A stretch of DNA of 35,504 bases from Acidobacteria bacterium ADurb.Bin340. GTDB taxonomy: Bacteria > Acidobacteriota > Holophagae > Holophagales > Holophagaceae. Every line of letters begins with the position of its first letter. The stretch's first letter is position 1. Shown here in pieces: positions 12,070 to 14,066 of this stretch. A model generated the notes under the pieces. The model was not told where the DNA came from. It worked only from the letters and a program-made list of their open reading frames with translations, and did not search any database. The stretch spans positions 1 to 35,504 of the forward strand of contig MWBB01000002.1 of assembly GCA_002068835.1 (NCBI GenBank). Direction: 5' to 3'. The position numbers were made by a program, and so were the translations under genes.

Positions 12070-12438
12070 ATGATCCAGATGGGAACCATGCTCACCGTCG
12101 CCGACAACTCGGGCGCCAAGAAGATCTGCTGCATCCTGCCGCTGGGCGGCGGGGTGGGCAAGATCGCCCAGCTCGGCGACGTCATCACGGCTTCCGTGAA
12201 GGAAGCCATTCCCGGCGGCACCGTCAAGAAGAAGGCCGTGGTGCAGGCCGTCATCGTCCGGCAGCGCAAGGCTTACCGGCGGAAGGACGGATCCTACATC
12301 CGCTTCGACGAGAACGCGGCCGTCATCATCAAGAAGGACGGCGAGCCCGTTGGCACCCGTGTGTTCGGGCCCGTGGCCCGCGAACTCCGCGAGCGGAAGT
12401 ACATGAAGATCGTCTCCCTCGCCCCTGAGGTGCTGTGA
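12070..12438 (+). CDS. rplN: 50S ribosomal protein L14
   Basis: Intersubunit-bridge protein and docking site of the silencing factor RsfS. 122 residues, opening [19 protein letters not shown] and ending with [25 protein letters not shown]-type family residues at about 98-122. Its stop (TGA, 12436-12438) shares the A with the ATG of rplX, so the two are translationally coupled. Confidence 0.96.
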
Positions 12439-12716
12439 TGGAGAACCAGCCTGTCAAGATGAAGCTCAAGAAGGGCGACGAAGTCCTCGTCATCGCCGGC
12501 AAGGACCGCGGCAAGCGCGGACAGGTCCTTCGCGTGATGCCCACCACCAACAGCGTGGTCGTGGCCGGACTCAACCTGATCAAGAAGGCCGTCAAGCCGA
12601 ATCCGCAGACCGGCCAGGAAGGCGGCATCATCACGAAGGAGGCCCCGATCCACGCTTCCAACGTGATGCTGATCGACCCTTCCACCCAGAAGCCCACCCG
12701 CAAGCGCCCTGCTTGA
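12438..12716 (+). CDS. rplX: 50S ribosomal protein L24
   Basis: Assembly-initiator 23S rRNA binder with a KOW motif ([21 protein letters not shown], about 11-31). 92 residues from ATG 12438, which overlaps the rplN stop as TGATG; a GTG three bases earlier (12435) is the alternative. gagg at 12427-12430 serves as ribosome-binding site. It is followed by the longest intergenic stretch inside the ribosomal run (190 nt). Confidence 0.94.
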
Positions 12717-12720
12717 GGAC

Positions 12721-12796
12721 CGAAGGATTCCGCTTGGAATCCTTCGAGAAGCTGAGATAATGGAGATTCCGCCGATGGGACGCCATCGGCGGAATC
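12721..12796 (+). promoter_or_regulatory. Twin hairpins with interchangeable arms in the rplX-rplE gap
   Basis: Hairpin 1: cgaaggattcc (12721-12731) pairs with ggaatccttcg (12736-12746), loop gctt, 11 bp perfect. Hairpin 2: gattccgccgatgg (12765-12778) pairs with ccatcggcggaatc (12783-12796), loop gacg, 14 bp perfect. The left arm of hairpin 1 (12721-12733) can instead pair over 13 positions, one of them G-U, with the right arm of hairpin 2 (12789-12801). Hairpin 2 is followed by only T3, so it is at best a weak terminator. A switch-like or attenuator role is inference. Confidence 0.55.
12734..12761 (+). promoter_or_regulatory. Candidate internal promoter for rplE onwards
   Basis: TTGGAA (12734-12739), 16-bp spacer, GATAAT (12756-12761), four of six and five of six consensus positions. 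The -35 lies in the loop and right arm of hairpin 1. Transcripts would start inside the left arm of hairpin 2, giving a leader of about 138 nt to rplE. This could set the level of the spc and alpha genes apart from the S10 genes. Confidence 0.5.
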
Positions 12797-12815
12797 CTTT
12801 GAAAACCCCGAGGCT

Positions 12816-12890
12816 GGGAGGAAACGGGCCGGACCGCCGGCTCCAAGCCCTCCCGCTCTCCCGAACCCGGCGGGCGTAGCCGCCCACCGG
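12816..12890 (+). promoter_or_regulatory. Structured rplE leader
   Basis: Three further pairings precede rplE: gggagg (12816-12821) with cctccc (12849-12854), enclosing gccgg/ccggc (12828-12832 with 12837-12841), and gggcg/cgccc (12872-12876 with 12881-12885) flanked by ccgg pairs. The last one ends 4 nt before the tggaggaa ribosome-binding site. It matches no leader I know; an autoregulatory site for an spc-operon protein is possible but unproven. Confidence 0.35.
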
Positions 12891-12906
12891 AAATGGAGGA
12901 AACCCA

Positions 12907-13461
12907 ATGCCCACCAAGGCAGAGCCCCGCATCAAGGCTCGCTACACCACGGAAGTGGTGCCCAAGCTCAAAGAGGAGTTCGCGTTCACCAGCGTCATGC
13001 AGGTGCCTCGTCTCCAGAAGATCGTCATCAACATGGGCGTCGGCGATGCCATCCAGAACATCAAGGTCCTGGACGGCGCCGTGGAGGAGCTCACTTCGGT
13101 CTCCGGTCAGAAGGCCGTGGTCCGCAAGGCCAAGAAGAGCGTCGCGCAGTTCAAGCTGCGTGCCGGCATGCCCATCGCCTGCATGGTGACCCTGCGTGGC
13201 GAGCGGATGTGGGAGTTCTTCGATCGGCTCGTCAACCTGTCCCTGCCCCGTGTCCGCGATTTCCGCGGCGTGCCCACCAAGTCCTTCGATGGCCGCGGGA
13301 ACTACACCCTTGGCCTGCGGGACCAGCTGATCTTCCAGGAGATCGATTACTCCAAGGTCGAGAAGCTCAAGGGCATGAACGTCACGTTCGTGACCACGGC
13401 CAAGAACGATGCCGAGGCCCGCGCTCTGCTGGCCCATCTCGGCATGCCCTTCCGGAAGTAG
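12907..13461 (+). CDS. rplE: 50S ribosomal protein L5
   Basis: 5S rRNA binder of the central protuberance that bridges to S13. 184 residues, with conserved [14 protein letters not shown] at about 35-48, the REPLACEABLE-loop region [23 protein letters not shown] near 75-97, and [20 protein letters not shown] near 116-135. Start ATG 12907 follows tggaggaa with proper spacing. First gene after the structured 190-nt gap; rpsN follows after 11 nt. Confidence 0.95.
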
Positions 13462-13670: not shown

Positions 13671-14066
13671 ATGTATACCGATCCCATCGCAGATTTCCTC
13701 ACCCGCATCCGCAACGGCATCATGGCCGGCCACGATGCCGTGGTGATTCCGGCTTCCCGGATGAAGAAGAACCTCGCCGCCATCCTCCTGCAGGAGGGCT
13801 ACATCCATGGCTTCAAGGCCGTGGAGCACGAGGGCCGCGACTACATCATCGTGAACCTGAAGTACGTGAAGGGTGGCGATCCCGTCATCCACGGACTCCG
13901 GCGCATTTCCTCCCCTGGCCTGCGCATCTACGCGGGCGTGAAGGAGATTCCGGAAGTCAACGGCGGTCTTGGCATTGCCATCCTCTCCACCCCGCGCGGT
14001 GTCATCACGGGCAAGGATGCCCGCAAGCACAACGTGGGCGGCGAGGTCCTCGCGCACATCTGGTAG
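13671..14066 (+). CDS. rpsH: 30S ribosomal protein S8
   Basis: Primary 16S rRNA binder of the 30S platform, and in E. coli the repressor of the spc operon. 131 residues, opening MYTDPIADFLTRIRNGIMAGH, with the RNA-contacting C-terminal segment LSTPRGVITGKDARKHNVGGE (about 104-124). ggggagg precedes the ATG. An E. coli-type S8 site would lie at the start of rplE; I cannot identify one by eye. Confidence 0.96.
   Translation: MYTDPIADFLTRIRNGIMAGHDAVVIPASRMKKNLAAILLQEGYIHGFKAVEHEGRDYIIVNLKYVKGGDPVIHGLRRISSPGLRIYAGVKEIPEVNGGLGIAILSTPRGVITGKDARKHNVGGEVLAHIW

Follow-up and report, generated by a model that had tools for sequence, protein, structure and literature searches.

In the spc operon, rplX is usually followed directly by rplE, and the 35,504-nt stretch of DNA analysed here (the window) raises the question of why the two genes are separated by 190 nt (12717-12906, rplX ending at 12716 and rplE starting at 12907). 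A preliminary description made from the sequence had noted this gap as structured and atypical, and both its size and its fold bear this out. Indeed, the entire gap folds with -100.6 kcal/mol (z -6.1), a value equalled by 0 of 200 shuffles. Across the 33 measurable genomes of Acidobacteriota outside the Holophagaceae, rplX and rplE lie a median of 9 nt apart, with a gap of at least 100 nt in only one of them, and the gap of Escherichia coli is 14 nt. The additional hairpins announced 5' of rplE were also seen. No Rfam family matched the window at gathering score, and none of relevance was obtained even at E up to 10. A repeat or REP-like element was rejected, the gap having no second copy in its own genome, as was an intrinsic terminator, there being no T-run 3' of either of the two upstream hairpins and no terminator in a + strand scan of the gap.

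In our judgement, the gap almost certainly holds a structured cis-element, and this element is probably a ribosomal protein (r-protein) leader restricted to the Holophagaceae, a family from soils and sediments. The preliminary description stressed the upstream part of the gap, but the key and most conserved part is its 3' half (12805-12900). The features of the locus are listed in Table 1.

Table 1. Features of the rplX-rplE junction and neighbouring genes (positions in the window)
Feature	Position	Strand	Basis
rplX (uL24), upstream of the element	12435..12716	+	Pfam ribosomal_L24 and KOW
Hairpin 1, perfect palindrome over the -35, peculiar to the window's genome	12721..12746	+	Fold; absent in relatives
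Predicted internal promoter: -35 TTGGAA, spacer 16, extended -10 TGA-GATAAT (12753-12761)	12734..12761	+	Sequence; conservation in relatives
5'-end hairpin (hairpin 2 of the preliminary description)	12765..12796	+	Fold; conservation; stem starting near the predicted transcript start
Conserved leader domain P1-P4, ~95 nt	12805..12900	+	Alignment, consensus fold, covariation, model R1
Stem P1 (12815-12821 with 12849-12855)	12815..12855	+	Covariation
S8-like internal loop: GAAACGG (12821-12827) opposite CCAAGCC (12843-12849), P2 between	12821..12849	+	Conserved in 59/59; resemblance to E. coli operator
P2, inward from 12826-12827/12843-12844		+	Consensus fold
Predicted anti-Shine-Dalgarno strand UCUCC (5' side of P3)	12857..12861	+	Consensus fold; CUCC/GGAG invariant
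Hairpin P4 (12867-12874 with 12883-12890)	12867..12890	+	Covariation
rplE Shine-Dalgarno GGAGG (3' side of P3), 7 nt before ATG 12907	12895..12899	+	Sequence; conserved GGAAATGGAG
rplE (uL5), first gene 3' of the leader	12907..13461	+	Pfam Ribosomal_L5 / L5_C
rpsH (uS8), third gene 3' of the leader, encoding the favoured ligand	13671..14066	+	Pfam Ribosomal_S8

Internal promoter and upstream hairpins

The predicted internal promoter TTGGAA-16-GATAAT is found where it had been described and is conserved across genera. By consensus score it is not unusual in the window (3 such sites per 18.5 kb against 2.0±1.3 expected), and its weight comes from its conservation, not from the match alone. The family consensus, drawn from 55 distinct sequences, is an extended -10 (TGnGAnnAT), and similarity to TTGACA is maximal at a spacing of exactly 17, with a mean of 2.75 of 6 matches versus 0.6-2.1 at other spacings. 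Since a pattern served to locate the -10 in the relatives, part of its conservation is built in; the -35 peak does not depend on that pattern. This would be an internal sigma70-type promoter, with a predicted transcript start at about 12767-12769.

The two perfect hairpins around this promoter were confirmed: hairpin 1 (12721-12731/12736-12746) has 11 bp, -17.1 kcal/mol and z -5.3, and hairpin 2 (12765-12778/12783-12796) has 14 bp, -28.1 kcal/mol and z -6.9. Conservation of the stems in relatives holds for hairpin 2, and covariation for P1 and P4 of the 3' domain, but hairpin 1 is not conserved. Indeed, a 5' hairpin with a stem of at least 7 bp is present in 57 of 57 testable sequences (44 distinct stems), where it begins a median of 5 nt after the -10. 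Palindromes spanning the promoter exist in several relatives, with other sequences and at other positions, and only that of genome G053 is of a strength similar to hairpin 1 (z -4.6).

The arms of the two hairpins had been described as interchangeable, with readthrough and internally started transcripts folding differently as hairpins 1 and 2 swap arms. The complementarity is real in the window, where 12723-12733 can pair with 12789-12799 over 11 exact bp (13 bp with one G-U), but it occurs only there: in the other genomes tested, leaving out the mis-anchored row of G064, the best complement runs to 4-8 nt, a length that shuffles also give. With both hairpin 1 and the exchange pairing confined to the window's genome, a switch between alternative hairpins is unsupported and appears highly improbable, and the comparison across relatives speaks strongly against a general role of hairpin exchange.

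Several local peculiarities surround the promoter in relatives. In brief, the spacer and -10 of Geothrix loci (e.g. L022, L026, L032) are often self-complementary (ATCCTCC...GGAGGAT, CTTCACAGG...CCTGTGTGAAG), with sequences that differ among loci and a fold z of only about -1 to -3; this region could possibly be an operator or the 3'-end hairpin of an rplN-rplX transcript. Repetitive AGTCAGTGGTCAGCGATCAGT-like sequence upstream of the promoter lengthens the gap at loci L004 (genome G072) and L006 (genome G071), and in Geothrix the part of the gap between rplX and the promoter contains C-rich palindromes; all of these look like inserted repeats.

Covarying 3' domain

In an alignment of 31 sequences, 96.8% of the cells of the 3' domain are paired (87.5±0.7 when shuffled), and double-sided changes occur in 11 of 23 pairs. 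These amount to 82 double-change cells versus 23.1±6.0 in shuffles, and controls slid by 1-3 columns reach 10-23. P1 has double-sided changes in 5 of its 7 pairs, with 99.1% of cells paired, and P4 in 4 of 7, with 94.5% paired. A covariance model of the domain (R1) matches the window at E 9.6e-18, the window sequence being part of its training set. Comparison of sequences thus supports P1, P4 and the 5' hairpin as paired elements, together with their conservation throughout the family and their fixed place before rplE.

P3 hardly varies and therefore cannot be tested by covariation; the pairing of UCUCC with the rplE Shine-Dalgarno is predicted from the consensus fold and from the overlap with the Shine-Dalgarno. 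Partition functions of single sequences are split between CUCC-GGAG and an alternative in which CUC pairs with a conserved GAG further upstream, the latter being often preferred. These two pairings are mutually exclusive and could be the switch. Between P3 and P4, a 4x4 internal loop CGAA/AAAU (12862-12865 with 12891-12894) is invariant in 31 of 31 aligned sequences.

Distribution in the Holophagaceae

The three-part element (promoter, 5' hairpin and RNA domain) precedes rplE in 58 genomes of Holophagaceae (Acidobacteriota) from 11 genera, some of them as small as 0.9-1.2 Mb (G001-G003), and every located copy of the leader lies directly before rplE. The window itself belongs to this family, since the genomes with which it has the element in common are Geothrix and other Holophagaceae. 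These 58 genomes yielded 59 copies, G072 being a mixed bin with two copies; as its two rplE regions, L034 (contig C32) and L075 (contig C108), include one of Geothrix type, this genome is probably contaminated. A DNA search of 150 relatives recovered the gap from 57 members of the family, counting the window's own genome, and gave outside it a single short match (31 nt, E 5e-5). When R1 was searched against 396 genomes of the phylum, it matched all sampled Holophagaceae whose rplE was assembled (E 8e-12 to 3e-21); the single sampled genome of the family that gave no match, G035, also has no assembled rplE. Outside the family nothing fell below E 0.04, and the weak matches at E 0.045-0.71 were taken as chance.

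Furthermore, 84,980 species were scanned for exact occurrences of CTCCCGAACCC-N12-36-GGAAATGGAG, with 55 matches, of which 53 are the leader and two (L215, L233) are chance. The P1/P2 strands are as written in 52 of the 53 leaders, and L197 (Geothrix limicola) has UCAAGC for CCAAGC. Two loci recorded as Bacillota and Deltaproteobacteria (L211, L231) have rplE of Holophagaceae type and are probably misnamed bins. One of the 53 leaders lies on a contig labelled Proteobacteria (L240, JAIUNP010000321.1), which has a Holophagaceae-like rplX end, promoter and leader at its start (1-300) and, further 3', an rplE and spc genes that look alphaproteobacterial; this contig is probably a chimera with its junction in the first codons of rplE, the alternative being a transfer.

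Resemblance to S8 sites

In E. coli, S8 represses at the rplE start through a site resembling 16S helix 21 (PMC10931766; PMC4176348). The strands of this operator, read from the E. coli rplE sequence, are GAAACUG (+6 to +12) and GCAAGUC (+78 to +84), consistent with the published triple A80-(A81-U11). An internal loop GA-N(1-2)-AC-GG ... YCAAGC is present in 59 of 59 copies of the leader. It has equivalents of G639, A640, N641, A642 (A12824 in the window) and C643, and of A595, A596 and G597. Its variants (GAGAC, GACAC, GAACAC, GAAAAC) are changed or lengthened at position 641 alone, the position written N641 in natural S8 sites (PMC4176348). The loop is without U644 and has C in place of U598, which precludes A596-U644 and U598-A640 in the form known from natural S8 sites; U644 and U598 are both present in the family's own 16S helix 21. 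An aptamer lacking the conserved motif can still bind S8 by rearrangement (PMC4176348), and these deviations are therefore compatible with binding.

A two-strand S8 pattern has the E. coli operator as its sole + strand match across 5 kb of S10-spc. It has no match in 40 junctions (20 kb) outside the family and five on both strands of the 35.5-kb window, and it arises in 68 of 5000 shuffled gaps (1.4%). The loop match would thus arise by chance in about 1% of cases if free of position, and less within the conserved loop, which is suggestive but not proof. A second S8 motif was sought around the rplE start in the window and none was found. Linear rRNA mimicry was rejected, similarity being at chance level for 16S, 23S and 5S rRNA (279, 107 and 121 of 300 shuffles equally good). 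The best linear 23S match was CCAUGACAACUGAGGUUGG with CCUUGAC-AUUGAGGUUGG; likewise, a 23S segment UUGACAUUGAGGUUGG (L094:5688-5705) resembles UGACAACUGAGGUUGG of the leader, at chance level against shuffles.

Compared with the S8 site of 16S helix 21, the leader shares GA-N-AC opposite AAG, the variable base at 641 and helices on both sides, but the order of the strands is reversed. With the E. coli spc operator it shares the rplX/rplE junction, core strands GAAAC...CAAG in the same order and a predicted block of rplE initiation, yet no sign of common descent. That operator lies inside the rplE coding start (+6 to +84), after a 14-nt gap, and has U644 and U598, whereas the leader is a separate 95-nt UTR domain reaching up to the Shine-Dalgarno, with a predicted promoter and 5' hairpin of its own. 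It shares the position at the rplE translation start (location only; domain 12805-12900, ATG 12907) and is wholly upstream of the start codon, not in the first rplE codons. Because it lies outside rplE and agrees with the S8 core only in part, the leader was not classed with the E. coli S8 operators, although with S8 as its ligand it would work in the manner of these.

Candidate ligands and proposed mechanism

S8 is, in our judgement rather than by computation, the most likely ligand, with about an even chance of being the right one. Besides the missing U644, the C for U598 and the frequency of the motif in shuffles, S8 leaves the invariant CGAA/AAAU loop unaccounted for. A combined reading, in which the S8 operator re-evolved as an independent domain and the CGAA/AAAU loop binds a second ligand such as L5, the leader sensing both subunits, is possible but improbable. 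Binding by L5 alone, the P3/P4 loop imitating loop C of 5S rRNA through UCCCGAAC, is scarcely more probable: L5 binds 5S rRNA (PMC10931766), rplE is the next gene and the invariant leader stretch CUCCCGAACCC has the 8-mer UCCCGAAC in common with the family's 5S loop C, but the linear similarity to 5S is that of shuffles, the partner strand GGAAAUGGAG is unlike the remainder of loop C, and a literature search found no L5 leader.

In r-leaders that control several genes, the gene immediately downstream frequently does not encode the ligand (PMC7247131), and the internal loop fits S8 imperfectly, which leaves room for a true r-protein leader with another spc ligand (L24, L14, S14, L6, L18, S5 or other). 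This is unlikely, if the least so of the alternatives to S8; no comparable resemblance to other rRNA sites was found, in comparisons that were linear for 16S and 23S and used a two-strand motif for S8 only. Somewhat more doubtful is a conserved, folded 5' UTR of the internal transcript that governs how fast the mRNA is translated or how stable it is without binding any r-protein, e.g. through a temperature- or ribosome-responsive Shine-Dalgarno helix. The hairpin at the transcript start and the paired Shine-Dalgarno would suffice for this; however, more than 30 invariant bases, many of them in internal loops, exceed the needs of simple masking.

With S8 as ligand, the element could work as follows. 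Transcription would start from the internal promoter at about 12767-12769, giving an RNA with a stable hairpin first and then a two-part domain, in which the P1/P2 internal loop would imitate the S8 core of helix 21 and P3/P4 would hold the rplE Shine-Dalgarno paired with UCUCC. S8 in excess of free 16S rRNA would bind the P1/P2 loop and stabilise the closed form, which would block initiation of rplE and, by coupling, of the downstream spc genes including rpsH. These steps, from the transcript start and the binding of S8 to translational repression and coupling, are all proposed here, and this whole explanation, an internal promoter and a Holophagaceae-specific leader with S8 feedback, stands at roughly equal odds of being right or wrong.

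Relation to known leaders and significance

The suggestion of an undescribed r-protein leader remains the best reading of the gap, given the conservation throughout the family, the covariation, the constant position before rplE and the lack of an Rfam match. The leader shows two general features of this class, namely a structure supported by covariation and a constant place directly upstream of an r-protein gene. Like other r-leaders (S4, S15, L20, L31 etc.; Eckert and Weinberg 2020, PMC7247131), it is an RNA with covariation that occurs exclusively upstream of r-protein genes and in a single lineage, and it is suspected of rRNA mimicry; unlike them, it lies in mid-operon, behind a predicted internal promoter. 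The 20 new motifs of that study include no S8 or L5 leader and none listed for Acidobacteria (PMC7247131). According to a 2024 review of extraribosomal functions, the phylogenetic study of spc autoregulation has not progressed, and spc regulation in Bacillus subtilis or outside E. coli-like species is not known (PMC10931766).

In summary, the leader is a concrete element of Acidobacteriota, backed by covariation and placed at the junction that also has the E. coli S8 operator, and is probably a new r-protein leader acting as a feedback switch on ribosome production. If S8 is indeed its ligand, imitation of the same rRNA site would have arisen independently in the Holophagaceae, and at the same place in the operon.
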